Origin: Spirochaetia bacterium
GTDB taxonomy: Bacteria; Spirochaetota; Spirochaetia; Treponematales; Treponemataceae
Direction: 5' to 3'
Length of the DNA stretch: 64,000 nucleotides
NCBI GenBank assembly: GCA_022768865.1
Contig: JALELH010000066.1
Location: 1-64,000 of the forward strand
Every line of letters starts with the position of its first letter. The stretch's first letter is position 1. Shown here piece by piece: positions 4,105 to 61,802 of the stretch. The notes beneath the pieces were generated by a model, which made no database searches, had not been told where the DNA came from, and saw nothing but the letters and a program-made list of their open reading frames with translations. Both the position numbers and the translations under genes were made by a program.

Positions 4105-5040
4105 ATGCTTAAGTTTCTGCTTTTTATCTTGCTTCAGGTTTCCCTGCTTGCTCCGGCTTTTGCATGGGGAATTAAAAACAAAAAAACTAACGCCGCAGAA
4201 CCAAAGACAGTTAAGGTTCAGGCAGAAGACAAAGCAAAACCACTGCCTTCAGACTTGCAGGTCTTGATTGGCGCATACCCGGAACTTAAAATCCATGCCC
4301 AGTTTGATCAGGCACAAAATGAATATAAAATCACCTTTAATAGCTACGGAAAAGACTTTATGTTTTACTGGGCAGACGGCCGTGTTTTGCCGCCGGAAGA
4401 ATTAAAAAACAGGCAGAACTTTCACCCAATAATCTATCTATATAATAACGTTCTGCGGGACCCTTCAACTTTTACAGAAGAAGAAATAGCACACTTAAAG
4501 GAATATGGCAAAGTCAGCAGCAGAAAGAACGCACCGGGCACGCCCATGTTTTTCTTTGATGCAATTTATTCGTCCCAGAGCAGAAGCACAATTGAACGCC
4601 ACATTGTAACCACGACATTTTTAGGAAAGCCCACAAGGGTTCACGAAAAGATTTTTCCAAAGCTTAAGAATGTAGAAAAGAAAATTCTTGAAGCAGAAAA
4701 AACATCGCCAAAGGTAAAGACCTTTGTAAGGGAATTAAAAAGTGCAGCGGCCTACCACTGGCGCGAAATTGACGGAACATCAAGAAAATCATTCCACAGC
4801 CTTGGCATTGCAATTGACGTGCTGCCCGTTGCTTACCACGGCGGAGAAGTTTACTGGAGCTGGGCAAGGGATAAAAACCCCAGCGGCTGGATGAAGACAC
4901 CACTTAAAAGAAGATGGATGCCGCCGGAAGAAGTTATCCGTGCCTTTGAAAGCGAAGGCTTTATCTGGGGCGGCTACTGGGCCATCTGGGACAACATGCA
5001 TTTTGAATATCACCCGGAGTTGCGCGCAAAAAGCAATTGA
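4105..5040 (+). CDS. Exported M15-family (VanY/D-Ala-D-Ala carboxypeptidase-like) peptidase
   Basis: 311 residues. A signal peptide spans about residues 1-21 (MLKFLLFILL... ending PAFAWG), so the enzyme acts in the periplasm. The C-terminal third carries the M15 zinc signature: SFHSLGIAIDV near residues 229-239 (His and Asp ligands) and DNMHFEYHPE near 296-305 (catalytic Glu/His region). The family trims D-Ala-containing peptidoglycan peptides. The start was set at 4105, because upstream in-frame codons lie in a dispersed repeat and encode no signal peptide. AAGGA at 4086-4090 is too far (14 nt) to be a convincing ribosome site. The middle ~180 residues have no recognised domain. Confidence 0.85.
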   Translation: MLKFLLFILLQVSLLAPAFAWGIKNKKTNAAEPKTVKVQAEDKAKPLPSDLQVLIGAYPELKIHAQFDQAQNEYKITFNSYGKDFMFYWADGRVLPPEELKNRQNFHPIIYLYNNVLRDPSTFTEEEIAHLKEYGKVSSRKNAPGTPMFFFDAIYSSQSRSTIERHIVTTTFLGKPTRVHEKIFPKLKNVEKKILEAEKTSPKVKTFVRELKSAAAYHWREIDGTSRKSFHSLGIAIDVLPVAYHGGEVYWSWARDKNPSGWMKTPLKRRWMPPEEVIRAFESEGFIWGGYWAIWDNMHFEYHPELRAKSN

Positions 5041-5180
5041 CACAATAGAAGCCCGCACCGGCAATAACTTTTTGCGCAAGAATTGCTACGCACTCAAACC
5101 GCTGAATAACTGCCATACTTCCTGCCATATTCACTTGCCATGGAATAACAGCTTGCTATAATGCTAAACAACGGCTACAT

Positions 5181-7906: not shown

Positions 7907-9748
7907 TTATTCAACTGTAACTGACTTTGCAAGGTTTCTTGGCTTGTCAGGGTCAATTCCGCGCAGGACTGCACAGTAATAGGCAATGAGCTGTCCCGGA
8001 ATAATTGCAAGCATGGATTCAAACAGGGTGTCTGTTTCAGGAACCGTTACAATGTTGTCGGCAGAATCAGAGAATGAATTTCTTGTATCCTGTGTAATCA
8101 AAAGGGATGTTGCACCGCGTGTCTTTACTTCCTTTATGTTGCTTGAAAGCTTTTCGTAAAGTTCCGGCACTGTTGCAAGGGCAATTACTAAGGTAGACTT
8201 GTCTATAAGGGCAATTGGTCCGTGCTTAAGTTCGCCTGCGGCAAATGCTTCTGAATGCATGTAGCTTACTTCCTTTAATTTAAGTGCGCATTCAAGGGAA
8301 GATGCACTGTCAAAAAGGCGGCCAATAAAGAATACCTTGTCCTTGTTGTAGTTTTGTGCAACAAACTTCTGCACAACTGCCTTATTGTCCAATATTGTCT
8401 GAACCTTTGCAGGGATGGTTGTAAGTTCTGCAAGCAGGCGGCGGTATTCAGTTTCTTCCATTATATTGTGGATTTTGGCCATCTTAAGTGCAAGCAGGTA
8501 AAGGCACATAAGCTGTGTTGAATAGGCCTTTGTAGAAGCTACGGCGATTTCCGGTCCTGCCCAGGTATAGACAACATCATCTGCTTCGCGGCTTACTGTT
8601 GAACCTACGCAGTTTGTAATGGCAATTACGTGGGCACCGTTCTTTTTGGCAAGGCGCATGGCGGCAAGGGTATCTGCAGTTTCGCCTGACTGTGAAATTA
8701 CAATGAAGATGTCGTCCTTTTTAAGGATTGGGTTTCTGTAGCGGAACTCTGATGCAACGTCAACGGCTACAGGTATGCGTGCAAGCTGTTCAAAAACATA
8801 TTTGCCTACAACGCCTGCATGGTATGCTGTTCCGCATGCCGTAATTACTACGCGCTTTGCGTTTTTCCATTCATCGTTAAAGTCTATTTCTTCAAAGTTA
8901 ATGTCTACAGGAACATTGCCTTCCATAACAAGGCGTGGCCTTAATGTATCGTTTAATGCCTTTGGCTGTTCAAAGATTTCCTTAAGCATGAAGTGTTCGT
9001 AGCCGTTCTTTTCTGCTGCCGAAACATCCCAGTCCACATGGAAAGGCTGGCGTACAACACGGTTCATGTTTTCGTCAAAGAGATCTACATGGTCTTTGTA
9101 AAGGACTGCCATTTCATTCTGTTCAAGGAAGATAACTTCACGTGTATGTTCCAGAACTGCAGGAACATCACTGGCAATAAAGTTTTCGTCTTTGCCAAGT
9201 CCTACAATTAAAGGGCTTTCCTTGCGTACGGCAACAATTCTGTCAGGAAAATCCTTGCAGACAACGCCCAGTGCATAGCTGCCTTCTATCTTTCTGGAAG
9301 TCAGATATACTGCCTTTGCAATGTCTTTTGTTTCTGCATAGTAATGGTCAACCAGGTGTGCTACAACTTCACTGTCTGTTTCGCTTTTAAAGACAATGCC
9401 CTGTGCCTGAAGCCATGCCTTAAGCTTAACATAGTTTTCTATTATTCCATTATGAACTACGGCTATGGTTCCGTCTGCATTTAAATGAGGGTGAGCATTT
9501 ATGTCGCTTGGTTCGCCGTGAGTTGCCCATCTTGTATGTCCTATTCCCATAGAACCCTTTACAATTTCTTTAGCAACTTTTTCTTCAAGAACTTTAAGTG
9601 CACCCTTTACTTTGCGCACGATTATATTCTGTCCGTCAAACACGGCAAGACCGGCACTATCGTATCCGCGGTATTCAAGTTTTTTAAGAGCGTTTACGAT
9701 TACAGGAGTTGCGTCCTTATTTCCGATATATCCTACGATTCCACACAT
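7907..9748 (-). CDS. glmS: Glutamine--fructose-6-phosphate aminotransferase (isomerizing)
   Basis: 613 residues, standard length. It makes glucosamine-6-phosphate from fructose-6-phosphate and glutamine, the first step of UDP-GlcNAc synthesis. Seen: catalytic Cys after the initiator Met (MCGIVGYIG), GHTRWATHG, VHNGIIENY, SETDSEV, then two SIS domains with SQSGETADT and the conserved C-terminus AKSVTVE. The start at 9748 is fixed by the need for Cys at position 2; longer in-frame starts upstream are wrong. The leader holds a hairpin (9798-9826). I see no glmS ribozyme. Upstream of and likely cotranscribed with the nudix gene. Confidence 0.97.
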   Translation of the reverse strand: MCGIVGYIGNKDATPVIVNALKKLEYRGYDSAGLAVFDGQNIIVRKVKGALKVLEEKVAKEIVKGSMGIGHTRWATHGEPSDINAHPHLNADGTIAVVHNGIIENYVKLKAWLQAQGIVFKSETDSEVVAHLVDHYYAETKDIAKAVYLTSRKIEGSYALGVVCKDFPDRIVAVRKESPLIVGLGKDENFIASDVPAVLEHTREVIFLEQNEMAVLYKDHVDLFDENMNRVVRQPFHVDWDVSAAEKNGYEHFMLKEIFEQPKALNDTLRPRLVMEGNVPVDINFEEIDFNDEWKNAKRVVITACGTAYHAGVVGKYVFEQLARIPVAVDVASEFRYRNPILKKDDIFIVISQSGETADTLAAMRLAKKNGAHVIAITNCVGSTVSREADDVVYTWAGPEIAVASTKAYSTQLMCLYLLALKMAKIHNIMEETEYRRLLAELTTIPAKVQTILDNKAVVQKFVAQNYNKDKVFFIGRLFDSASSLECALKLKEVSYMHSEAFAAGELKHGPIALIDKSTLVIALATVPELYEKLSSNIKEVKTRGATSLLITQDTRNSFSDSADNIVTVPETDTLFESMLAIIPGQLIAYYCAVLRGIDPDKPRNLAKSVTVE

Positions 9749-9826: not shown

Positions 9827-9850
9827 TCTGCATTCCCTTATGCAATTACA

Positions 9851-9878
9851 GCAGATCCTGACCTGCGTCAGGATGACA
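9851..9878 (+). repeat. 28-nt hairpin repeat, copy A
   Basis: TCCTGAC-CTGC-GTCAGGA hairpin within a 28-nt unit beginning GCAGATCC. A second copy lies in reverse orientation at 60293-60320. The copies differ at only two positions, and these form a base pair (C-G here, T-A there). Confidence 0.75.
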
Positions 9879-13628: not shown

Positions 13629-15212
13629 TTATTGTTCAATAATCTTATACATAGGTTCTTCTCCCGGATGAAGTTCAAGAATGTGTTTTTCGCATAGCAG
13701 AACTTCTGACGGATCGTGTGTAACATGAAGCAGGGTCGTCGTTCCTGTTTCTGCTACGGTTTCAAGAAGGTCCAGTATTTTCTGGCGATAGTCTGCATCA
13801 AGTCCGTGGCATGGTTCATCTAAAATTAAAACCCTCGGAGACTTTACTGCAGCACGAAGAATTAAAATGGCACGCTGTTCGCCATAACTTAAATTTCCAA
13901 AGGATTCGTTTTCCCGGCCTGCAAAGCCTGCAAGCTTAAGCCAAAGTTTAGCAAGGGCAATTTCAAAATCTGTTGCCGTCTGGTAAAGCCCTATGCTGTC
14001 ATGAAAACCTGAAATAATTACATTCTGAAGTGAAGTTCCCCCAACCATTCTGTATTCAACATGAAGACGGTAACTTACAATTCCGAGATGACGCTTAATG
14101 TCCCAGATTGTTTCTCCGCTTCCACGCCGTTTGCCAAACAGGTAAACAGGCTCGCGGAATACCTGCATGTTGTCTCCCGTAATAAGTTCCATAATTGTTG
14201 TCTTTCCGCTGCCGTTTGGACCGCGCACTAAATAATGCTGTCCTTTTTTAACTTCCCATTTTAAATCGACTAAAACACGATGGTCATCCCAACCTACATT
14301 TACATTGTCAAATTTAATAAGGCTGTCCGGAACTTCAACTGAATTTATGTCCGCAGAAATTGCCTTGCTTTCGTTGCGGATTTTTTCAAGTTCAGCAAGG
14401 AAGGCTTCCTTTTCTGACTGACGCCTGAGGGCCTTTTCTTCTTCCTGTTTTTTTATAAGATCTTCGTAATCCTTTCTGTTTCCGCAGAAAGAAATTTTTT
14501 TATCTTTAAATTCTACAACTTTGTTTATGGAATCCGGTATTTCGTGAAAACGTTCCATGCAAAGAATGACATTAGGGAACGGACTTTCTTTTTCTGAAAG
14601 CTGTTTTGAAACAATGGTTGTAAAAAACTCCAGAAGAATTTTTCTGGATTCTGCATCAAGGCCAGCAAATGGATCACTTAAAATTAAAAGCCTGCACCCT
14701 GATAAAAGTGCACGGCATAAAAGCGTTCTGCGGATTTCGCCTGTAGACATGTAGCGCAAACCGCGGTCCAGGATTTTTTCTACGCCACAGAGTTTTACTT
14801 CTGCCATTGTTTCAAGGCGTCTGGCAATTTCAGGCAGCGGTGCATTTTTTTTACTGGAGCCACCAAGAACTTCTGCAATGTAAGCGCGGCCTGTCCTGCC
14901 TATGTCTTCTTTGTCCATGTAATCAGTTTCGTCACGGCTTCTTTCTTCTTCTATTAAAGCAGAGGCTTCTTCTAAAGAAACTATGGCGGCATTATTTTCA
15001 AAGCAATTGTAGTATTCAGAATTGCCTTCTGAGTTTTTTGCAAAGTCAAGCTGACCTGCAAGTGCCTTTATAAAATCTGCCTTTCCGCTGCCGTTTGGTC
15101 CTGTTACAAGCCAGGCTTCTCCTTTTTTAAATTCCCAGTTTATTTCCTGCAGGAATGTTTTGGTTTTATTCTGAATCCTGCAATTTTTTATTGTAATTAA
15201 ATTTTCTGACAT
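13629..15212 (-). CDS. ModF-like tandem ABC ATPase with a degenerate first domain
   Basis: 527 residues, two ATPase domains and no membrane segment, resembling ModF/PhrA (LEEASALIEEERSRDETDYMD is a ModF-like feature). Domain 1: GPNGSGKADF (Walker A Ser/Thr replaced by Ala), signature MSTGE, Walker B LLILSDPFAGLD where the usual DE is SD. Domain 2: GPNGSGKTTI, signature LSYGEQ, VLILDEPCHGLD and a switch His in HVTHD, all canonical. So domain 2 is probably the active ATPase and domain 1 weak or structural. Role unclear; ModF is loosely linked to molybdate transport and PhrA to photorepair, but neither partner is present. Shine-Dalgarno AAGGTG. Confidence 0.85.
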   Translation of the reverse strand: MSENLITIKNCRIQNKTKTFLQEINWEFKKGEAWLVTGPNGSGKADFIKALAGQLDFAKNSEGNSEYYNCFENNAAIVSLEEASALIEEERSRDETDYMDKEDIGRTGRAYIAEVLGGSSKKNAPLPEIARRLETMAEVKLCGVEKILDRGLRYMSTGEIRRTLLCRALLSGCRLLILSDPFAGLDAESRKILLEFFTTIVSKQLSEKESPFPNVILCMERFHEIPDSINKVVEFKDKKISFCGNRKDYEDLIKKQEEEKALRRQSEKEAFLAELEKIRNESKAISADINSVEVPDSLIKFDNVNVGWDDHRVLVDLKWEVKKGQHYLVRGPNGSGKTTIMELITGDNMQVFREPVYLFGKRRGSGETIWDIKRHLGIVSYRLHVEYRMVGGTSLQNVIISGFHDSIGLYQTATDFEIALAKLWLKLAGFAGRENESFGNLSYGEQRAILILRAAVKSPRVLILDEPCHGLDADYRQKILDLLETVAETGTTTLLHVTHDPSEVLLCEKHILELHPGEEPMYKIIEQ

Positions 15213-15401
15213 ATATTCACCTTGAAAAAGATTTTATTTAACTTCTGCAAGTCTACCACTTTGCCATAAAGGAAACAATTACAGCAAAAATTATTGTCCT
15301 CAAATTTTTCTTAAACCTGACATTTACTCTAATTATTTCTTTTAAATGCCGATAATATACTGAAGAATATTGAAATAGATTTTTTTTACGGAGGATACAA
15401 A

Positions 15402-27088: not shown

Positions 27089-27310
27089 AATAAACGCCGT
27101 AGGCAGGTTCCGGCCTCTAAAGAGTAAATGCTTGCATCCTTAATTTCTATGCAACCTATACAAGAATTGCATTTTTTAAGAGTCTTTACACCAATTGCGG
27201 AAGCAATTGGTGCGGCAAAAGTTAGTAGAATCTATAATAACTAGACAGCAAATGCTTTTGCCGTTGGGGCGAAAGTTATAAACGGTACCGGCCTCTATAG
27301 AGCATTTACT
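27089..27310. repeat. Mosaic of partial palindrome copy, direct and inverted repeats
   Basis: Starts with AATAAACGCCGTAGGCAGG, the left end of the ~100-nt palindrome. Then GGTWCCGGCCTCTAWAGAG occurs at 27106-27124 and again at 27284-27302. Inverted AGTAAATGC (27123-27131) and GCATTTACT (27302-27310) close the block. A CACCAATTGC-GGAA-GCAATTGGTG hairpin lies at 27189-27212. Confidence 0.65.
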
Positions 27311-27377
27311 TTTTCCCATTGACAATTTTCTGAAATTTGTCATAATAAATATACTAGACTTTTATAATGAGGTAATT

Positions 27378-59278: not shown

Positions 59279-60205
59279 TTATAAAATGAAGTTAAGCTTT
59301 TCATTCAGCTGGGTAAACTTTATGTTCTGTGCCTTATAGCTTACTTCTCCGTCTGTATGAAGCCACAGTGGAGCAGAAGTTTTTATTTCTGCTGCCTTAA
59401 AACGGTAAAGGTCAATTCCCTTAAAAATATGATGCAGGCCGAAAAAAGCAAGGGGAAGGGCAGTCAGAATGCCGGGCAATGTCTTGTCTGCCGCACAGAT
59501 AAAGTCAAGCTGGCCGTCAAAGGCATCTGCCTTAGGGCAGAACTTAAAGCCGCCGCCTTCGTATTTATGAACCATTGCTGCAAAGAAAATAAGGTTTTTG
59601 GCATGGATCTTTGTTCCGTCTGCAAAAGTAATTTCTGCATCAACCTTTGGAGCATTGATAAGCTGATTAAGTGCAATAAAAAGATATGTAAGCTTGCCAA
59701 GGCCTATTTTGTTCAGCCTCTTTTTCAGGATGGAATGAACGGACTTCTGGCACACTGAACCGTCAAAGCCGATTCCGCAGCTGACGGCAAAACGCCTTGT
59801 TCCTCTTTCTGTTTCTGCCAGGCCTATGTCTATCTGCATCGTCTGCCCTGCGTTTAAAATGCGCCTCAGGTTTTTATTAACGCTGCGGGGAAGCTTTAAA
59901 TCCCGTGCAAAGTCGTTGCTTGAGCCTGTAGGAATGTATGCAAGGGTTGTGCTTTCAAAATCCTTAATGCCCTGAACGGCATCGTTTAAAGTTCCGTCGC
60001 CGCCAAGTATTACAAGGATGCATTTATCTTCGTTTTTTGCCGCTGAAGAAAGGCGTTCTACAATCTGCGTTACGTCTCCGCGGTTTCTGGAAAATTCAAC
60101 TGAATATTCTGCGCCTTGTTTTTTAAGTTCCGGTTCTATTTTGTTCTGCCAGAGCTTAAGTCCCTTACCGGACCTGGACACAGGATTAACAATGAAGTGA
60201 TACAT
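59279..60205 (-). CDS. Diacylglycerol/lipid kinase (DagK/YegS-like)
   Basis: 308 residues. ATP-dependent lipid kinase fold: FIVNPVSRSGKGLKLW, LVILGGDGTLNDAVQGI (ATP-binding GGDGT), IPTGSSNDFARDL, VSCGIGFDGSVCQ and a C-terminal LWLHTDGEVSYKAQNIKF. Phosphorylates diacylglycerol or a related lipid. Promoter TTGAAA-17-TATTAT ends 6 nt before the ATG at 60205; no Shine-Dalgarno. Cotranscribed with queH. Confidence 0.92.
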   Translation of the reverse strand: MYHFIVNPVSRSGKGLKLWQNKIEPELKKQGAEYSVEFSRNRGDVTQIVERLSSAAKNEDKCILVILGGDGTLNDAVQGIKDFESTTLAYIPTGSSNDFARDLKLPRSVNKNLRRILNAGQTMQIDIGLAETERGTRRFAVSCGIGFDGSVCQKSVHSILKKRLNKIGLGKLTYLFIALNQLINAPKVDAEITFADGTKIHAKNLIFFAAMVHKYEGGGFKFCPKADAFDGQLDFICAADKTLPGILTALPLAFFGLHHIFKGIDLYRFKAAEIKTSAPLWLHTDGEVSYKAQNIKFTQLNEKLNFIL

Positions 60206-60240: not shown

Positions 60241-60292
60241 TTTTAGGATGAATTGAAATAGTATCTGTTGTATAACGGCATGCAGTTAATCT

Positions 60293-60320
60293 TGTCATTC
60301 TGACGCAGGTCAGAATCTGC
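60293..60320 (-). repeat. 28-nt hairpin repeat, copy B
   Basis: Inverse copy of 9851-9878: TTCTGAC-CTGC-GTCAGAA on the minus strand. The two differences from copy A are compensatory, so the hairpin is maintained. Confidence 0.75.
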
Positions 60321-60367
60321 TGCGGTCAGGCAAAACAGCTTTTATTGTCTTTAGATTAATGTTTTAA

Positions 60368-60543
60368 GTTTATTCCGGTGTTGTATTATTCCCACAATAC
60401 AGTGGGAACTGCTCCCACAATACAGTGGGAATAACTCCCACAATACAGTGGGAATAACTCCCACAACACAGTGGGAATAGTTCCCATAACCGAGTGGGAA
60501 TACCTCCCATCCAAGGATGGGAATGCATCACACCGGAATAAAC
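60368..60543. repeat. Six tandem 23-bp hairpin units inside a perfect 14-bp inverted repeat
   Basis: Outer arms GTTTATTCCGGTGT (60368-60381) and ACACCGGAATAAAC (60530-60543) are perfect inverses. Between them, six contiguous 23-bp units begin at 60390, 60413, 60436, 60459, 60482 and 60505. Each reads TCCCAY-6 nt-RTGGGA plus a 5-nt linker, i.e. one 6-bp hairpin. Units 2 and 3 are identical; unit 6 has TCCCAT/ATGGGA, a compensated change, and unit 5 a G-U type pair. Loops and linkers diverge while stems are kept. Confidence 0.9.
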
Positions 60544-60737
60544 AGTAAATAGTTAATAGGAACAAATGCTTTCGCCATTGATTAAAAGCCTGTCTTCTGT
60601 TATTTTCTTAGCAGAAGTTACGTTTGAGATGACTGCCGGCAGACCTGCTGCCTAAAAAGCCTACGAGTGCTTTTATAACTACATCACCAGGTAATTCAAA
60701 ATCATTTTACATTCTATTTTTCTCACGGGGTATTGTT

Positions 60738-61802
60738 ATGAACAAATACGTTAAGCGTTATTTAATTGACGCACTTGGCGGTATGGCACAGGGACTTTTT
60801 GCTTCCCTTCTTATCGGAACAATCGTAAAGACTTTAGGGCAGCAGCTTCTGCGCCTGGATGTTAATCCTGCCTTTGACTTTCTTGTAAAGGCAGGAACCT
60901 TTGCTGGCGACCCTCATGTTGTGGGTGCTGCCATGGCAGTGGGCATAGGCTATGCAATGCAGGTTTCTCCACTTGTTTTGTTTACCCTTGCTGCAGTAGG
61001 CAGTGCCGCAAACATTTCAGGCGGTGCAGGGGGACCTCTGGCAGTCCTTCTTATTTCCGTTGCTGCTGCAGAGACAGGCATGCTCGTAAGCAAAAAGACC
61101 AAAGTAGACATTATCGTAACTCCCCTTGTTACCATTGTTGCAGGTGCACTTCTTTCCGTTCTTTTTGCAGGCTACATCGGTAAAGGTGCTGCTGCTTTCG
61201 GCAACCTGATTATATGGGCTACAACATTAAAGCCTTTCCTTATGGGAATCATCATTTCCGTAATCGTAGGCCTTTTGCTTACTTTGCCTGTAAGTTCTGC
61301 GGCAATCTGTGCTGCCCTTGGTCTTACAGGTCTTGCAGGTGGTGCTGCCGTTGCAGGCTGCTGTGCACAGATGGTGGGCTTTGCCGTCTTAAGCTTCAGG
61401 GAAAACAGGTGGAGCGGAATACTTTCCCAGGGCCTTGGCACTTCCATGCTTCAGATGCCAAACATCATTAAAAATCCCCTGATATGGATTCCTGCTACAG
61501 TTGCTTCTGCCATTACGGGCCCTGTTGCTACATGTGTATTCAAAATGGAAATGAACGGTGCAGCCGTTTCTTCCGGCATGGGCACCTGCGGATTTGTAGG
61601 TCAGATTGGCGTTATTACAGGCTGGTTTGAACCTTCTGAAGCAGCCCTTAAGCACGGTGCCGCCGTCATTAGTCCTGCCTTTGCAGACTGGCTTGGCCTT
61701 GTTTTAGTATGCTTCATCCTGCCCGGAATCATTTCATACGCCCTTGGTCTTCTGTTAAGAAAATTAAACTGGATAAAAGACGGCGATTTGCTTCTATCTT
61801 GA
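60738..61802 (+). CDS. PTS EIIC-type (EIIC_2 family) membrane permease
   Basis: 354 residues, about ten membrane helices rich in Gly/Ala. Pattern of the PTS_EIIC_2 family: YLIDALGGMAQGLFASLLIGTI, GAAMAVGIGYAMQVSPLVLF, PLVTIVAGALLSVLFAGYIG, LPVSSAAICAALGLTGLAGGAAVAGCCAQMVGFAV and GTSMLQMPNIIKNPLIWIPATVASAI. No IIA or IIB domain is fused or adjacent, so phosphorylation-coupled transport is uncertain. ACGGGG 9 nt before the ATG is an imperfect ribosome site. Downstream of the hairpin array. Confidence 0.82.
   Translation: MNKYVKRYLIDALGGMAQGLFASLLIGTIVKTLGQQLLRLDVNPAFDFLVKAGTFAGDPHVVGAAMAVGIGYAMQVSPLVLFTLAAVGSAANISGGAGGPLAVLLISVAAAETGMLVSKKTKVDIIVTPLVTIVAGALLSVLFAGYIGKGAAAFGNLIIWATTLKPFLMGIIISVIVGLLLTLPVSSAAICAALGLTGLAGGAAVAGCCAQMVGFAVLSFRENRWSGILSQGLGTSMLQMPNIIKNPLIWIPATVASAITGPVATCVFKMEMNGAAVSSGMGTCGFVGQIGVITGWFEPSEAALKHGAAVISPAFADWLGLVLVCFILPGIISYALGLLLRKLNWIKDGDLLLS

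Follow-up and report, generated by a model that had tools for sequence, protein, structure and literature searches.

The array and its intergenic setting

The window, by which we mean the whole 64,000-nucleotide stretch of spirochaete DNA that was analysed, carries a tandem array of six 23-bp units at 60390-60522 on the forward strand (the final linker being excluded from this span). Two divergent genes flank it, namely a YegS/diacylglycerol-kinase family gene on the left (59279-60205, reverse strand; DAGK_cat and YegS_C) and a gene for a PTS_EIIC_2 membrane protein on the right (60738-61802, forward strand), and the array lies in the spacer between them, where a preliminary description had placed it. 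Each unit comprises an 18-bp palindrome, TCCCAY-N6-RTGGGA, followed by a 5-bp linker. This pattern fits without mismatch at all six unit starts (60390, 60413, 60436, 60459, 60482 and 60505), and TRF reports 60390-60509 with a period of 23, 88% matches and a score of 163, which together confirm the six TCCCAY/RTGGGA units proposed earlier; elsewhere in the window, the pattern occurs only twice when up to two mismatches are allowed. Also as claimed, unit 6 carries a compensated pair (T-A) and unit 5 a wobble (T-G), and the stems are preserved while loops and linkers drift. The units are separated by 5-bp linkers only and lack the unique spacers of a CRISPR array. The perfect 14-bp inverted repeat said to enclose the block is indeed present, its left arm at 60368-60381 (GTTTATTCCGGTGT) and its right arm at 60530-60543 (ACACCGGAATAAAC), both read on the forward strand; the right arm partly resembles one end of a related array on contig C18.

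Folded as RNA, the array reaches a z-score of -11.7 and none of 200 shuffles is as stable, in keeping with the earlier judgement that it is too regular for chance. The predicted minimum-energy fold is a single long rod in which the units pair with one another (-93.1 kcal/mol), rather than the 14-bp stem bearing six small hairpins that had been envisaged, which at -77.5 kcal/mol lies 15.6 above the minimum; DNA parameters rank the two in the same order. Within-unit pairing nevertheless covaries better than the alternative pairing over the linkers: in an eight-row alignment, five within-unit pairs are doubly changed, a number matched by 1 of 500 shuffles, as against two of the cross-linker pairs, matched by 110 of 500. 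Searches of Rfam gave no family at the gathering threshold, only sub-threshold microRNA look-alikes, and phage collections, plasmid collections and viral contigs contained no match to the array.

Past the array and ahead of the PTS_EIIC_2 gene lies a conserved leader (60613-60737, forward strand) that is present in orthologs of the genus. RNAalifold predicts that it folds into a three-way junction, in which four pairs are doubly compensated among five sequences; Rfam holds no match to it, and it may be regarded as a candidate riboswitch-like element. In two related genomes, G042 and G021, both flanking genes and this leader are kept and the corresponding intergenic region has no array.

Related arrays and their turnover

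Searched at the nucleotide level, the same genome yielded four more arrays of the TCCCAY unit, on contigs C91, C18, C92 and C99; with five related arrays in one genome, the suggestion of a dispersed hairpin repeat is borne out. Outside this genome, 97 further genomes of the genus gave no nucleotide match to the unit. For a wider census, 12 whole contigs of this genome (623 kb, six of the contigs being selected for holding arrays) and stretches of seven congeners were scanned by TRF, and the dyad symmetry of each array (period 16-60) was tested against column permutations, an array being called symmetric at P up to 0.05. The 623 kb contain about 20 intergenic arrays with at least ten unrelated palindromic cores (for example, GGTATATTACAATATACC, GCATATGTGCATATGC, TTCCTCATACCGTGAGGAA and TTCATACGTATGA), nearly all of period 22-23. 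The six contigs taken for chance pattern matches rather than for arrays (278 kb) hold about nine, again of period 22-23, and scaling from this sample puts the genome total of short tandem palindrome arrays very roughly at 90.

The periods of the symmetric arrays fall into two clusters, 21-23 bp (five at 21, four at 22 and seventeen at 23) and 40-41 bp (one at 40 and three at 41), with a single AT-rich array at 20. The general geometry is that of 21-23-bp units arranged head to tail, with a core of mostly 17-19 bp and a linker of 3-6 bp. Across 14 hand-laid arrays, diversity is mostly 0.0-0.2 in stems and mostly 0.2-0.5 in loops and linkers. When the 17 arrays with two usable flanking genes are classified by placement, using gene calls from a simple long-ORF rule, seven lie between divergent, ten between co-directional and none between convergent genes (P 0.04-0.075).

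A three-unit covariance model found arrays of unrelated sequence in the congeners G093, G076 and G103. Among the seven congeners scanned, arrays abound in G093 and G076, are few in G103 and are absent or nearly so in the others; 18 further congeners (369 kb in total) and 100 kb of E. coli yielded no array with significant symmetry. G093 and G076, sister species with about 95% nucleotide identity across long stretches, carry 21-23-bp and 40-bp versions, the 40-bp one being in G093. In G103, three arrays built on one 41-bp unit with a TTCGGC-GA-GCCGAA palindrome occur within 15 kb (L133:563-830, 8680-9045 and 15004-15314). The sole exact match to the window pattern among genome contigs, a set from which the genome studied here is perhaps absent, lies in a Thermoplasmata archaeon MAG, where a 23-bp palindromic unit, ATTCCCATGAAATCGTGGGATTC, stands in three identical copies after a gene (L104:1733-1800); because it was chosen by the pattern and its loop differs, we set it aside as evidence of kinship.

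The sequence of these arrays turns over at constant period. Within single arrays, the core shifts in register from a TCCCA type to an ACACCC type on contig C99, and from a GCTC type to a CCCC type in G093. Loops occur in inverted versions as well (CCAAGG/CCTTGG and AATGCA/TGCATT). At one orthologous locus of G093 and G076, where 13.4 kb of left flank, reaching into the array, are 94.7% identical, copy number and the share of two core types differ between the species, and the 21-bp period and the pairing are retained. The loss of pairing and random decay that the preliminary description would have taken as signs of a functionless duplication are thus not seen at this locus, whose array belongs to another sequence family. 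Another G093/G076 locus, with a 22-bp unit, is near-identical in both species, and one G093 array is missing from the corresponding site in G076, whose adjacent sequence is different. At L150/L154, next to an orthologous gene, the arrays of the two sister species differ in their stems but agree in the 23-bp period; we left this pair uncounted, since what matches on the other side, a 48-bp sequence, is present in G093 in two copies, which makes the orthology of the arrays insecure.

Origin and possible roles of the arrays

Given an estimate of very roughly 90 intergenic arrays of unrelated sequence and near-equal repeat length (22-23 bp), the window array is probably one of many palindromic minisatellites, a fast-evolving DNA-level repeat that grows and shrinks by slippage and whose pairing is kept by template switching. 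As the DNA is replicated, one or more units, when single-stranded, would fold back; slippage across the fold would alter the copy number, and template switching across it would copy one arm onto the other, restoring the pairing and sometimes inverting the loop. The mixed arrays and the one sister-species locus show that units come and go and that new cores arise in register inside an array, the period being passed on through the change of sequence; copies would in addition spread to other intergenic sites. Should the arrays have a function, for instance through an influence on the pair of divergent promoters at this locus, it would be secondary. The dispersal of five arrays of one unit, the coexistence of about 20 arrays with at least ten cores, the clustering of periods at 21-23 and 40-41 bp, the in-register core switches, the empty sites in G042 and G021 and the lower variability of stems all agree with such an origin, as do the inverted loops, an arrangement known as a template-switch footprint (PMC8794818), although the inversions are few. 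Slippage alone leaves the narrow period range shared by unrelated cores unexplained; this could be accounted for if all cores descend from one ancestor through in-register replacement.

Whether the stems are kept as DNA or as RNA was judged from their mismatches. If an RNA were what maintains them, the mismatches in any one array would be expected to lean towards G-T on one strand. A first, hand-picked count of 41 against 12 seemed to bear this out, but the excess vanished in a wider automatic count over 30 arrays, in which non-Watson-Crick stem cells comprise 49 G-T and 46 A-C, with per-array one-sidedness at chance level (P 0.97). As the two classes are about equal and no strand is preferred, there is no RNA signature, and this, together with the absence of the array from the G042 and G021 intergenic region, favours a DNA-level repeat. 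Transcription of the spacer into a structured or regulatory RNA would accommodate the very stable predicted fold and the within-unit covariation of the eight-row alignment, but covariation can also come from template switching (PMC8794818), and the array is absent from orthologous regions in which the two genes and the leader are retained. We therefore consider an RNA highly improbable, including the form suggested at the outset, in which a long-range stem closes the structure: the 14-bp repeat is peculiar to the window copy, wobble shows no strand specificity and Rfam has no match at its gathering threshold.

The main rival to the minisatellite is an array of protein-binding sites, in which each palindrome would receive a dimer, for regulation or chromosome organisation, and dimers spaced by 21-23 bp (about two helical turns) or 40-42 bp (about four) would lie roughly on one face and co-operate. 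Dyad symmetry without strand preference, conserved arms beside free centres and linkers, and the narrow period range of unrelated cores would all follow readily, and in 17 of 17 classified cases the array is upstream of at least one gene. The absence of convergent placements is suggestive only, hinting at a promoter-related role, and counts to that extent against the minisatellite. However, at least ten unrelated cores per genome would demand as many proteins, or one without sequence preference, two cores may share a single array, 23 bp amounts to 2.2 turns rather than an exact multiple, and the functions of flanking genes are mixed; we regard protein binding as rather unlikely. A similarly tentative thought is that what defines the class is not sequence but geometry, an approximately 18-bp dyad core recurring about every two or four helical turns, with cores replaced and geometry kept through some sequence-independent factor or process acting on repeated dyads.

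Less probable still is a true MITE, of which the array would be the interior, bounded by inverted-repeat ends and mobilised by a transposase in trans. The perfect 14-bp terminal repeat of the window copy, the dispersal of related copies, a strong parallel with BrickBuilt (PMC4596501) and some resemblance between the outer flank and one end of the C18 copy (P 0.005, uncorrected) speak for it. Clear terminal repeats are nevertheless missing from the other family copies, and we rejected them as a class-wide feature: only 3 of 45 family flank pairs are alike at P<0.01, and the similar ends of the array at C92:64967 were traced to an adjoining dispersed repeat. Inspection of the window copy by eye revealed no target-site duplication, the unoccupied sites of relatives being too diverged to align, and a search limited to the Y1/RAYT transposase family (PF01797) found no match in this genome's assembly, which is about 90% complete.

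Known repeats and neighbouring elements

By their published descriptions, the closest known kinds appear to be two repeats of Porphyromonas gingivalis: BrickBuilt, a 23-nt intergenic minisatellite inside a MITE, and MITE464/PgRS, tandem direct repeats of 41 nt bounded by IS5-family-like terminal repeats (PMC4596501). The arrays studied here share with BrickBuilt units of about 23 bp that follow one another head to tail with no spacers, the intergenic location and the dispersal of copies within one genome. In contrast, BrickBuilt forms a single sequence family, whose leader and tail segments reach about 300 nt and whose intact copies have IS5-like terminal repeats (PMC4596501), whereas our arrays have many unrelated cores and neither leader nor tail. 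As shared terminal repeats are not general, we liken the array to the internal minisatellite of BrickBuilt and do not file it as a member. MITE464/PgRS is matched in period by the 40-41-bp class (41 bp in G103, 40 bp in G093). REP/BIME palindromes are likewise short, intergenic and dispersed in many copies, but are scattered or alternating and tied to Y1 tyrosine transposases (PMC3733652, PMC2817692), unlike head-to-tail arrays of many families in a roughly 90% complete assembly where a Y1 search was empty.

Functional RNA is usually inferred from compensated base pairs; here, such stems span many unrelated repeats without an RNA signature, in agreement with a mutational origin, and they provide a natural test of hairpin formation and maintenance. 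That the 21-23 and 40-41-bp spacings recur in unrelated Porphyromonas repeats calls for a common physical or protein cause.

Two further repeats lie near the array. A short dispersed inverted repeat, TTGTCATTCTGACGCAGGTCAGAATCTG, occurs at 60292-60331, with more copies at 9849-9878 and on contigs C109 and C37. The other, of about 91 bp, has a full copy at C92:65057-65147 (L109) and holds a hairpin of its own (AAGAATTGC-N4-GCAATTCTT); fragments of it occur in the window at 60562-60576 (reverse strand), 5030-5087 and 27110-27320. It often lies less than 50 bp from arrays, several of which adjoin a copy.
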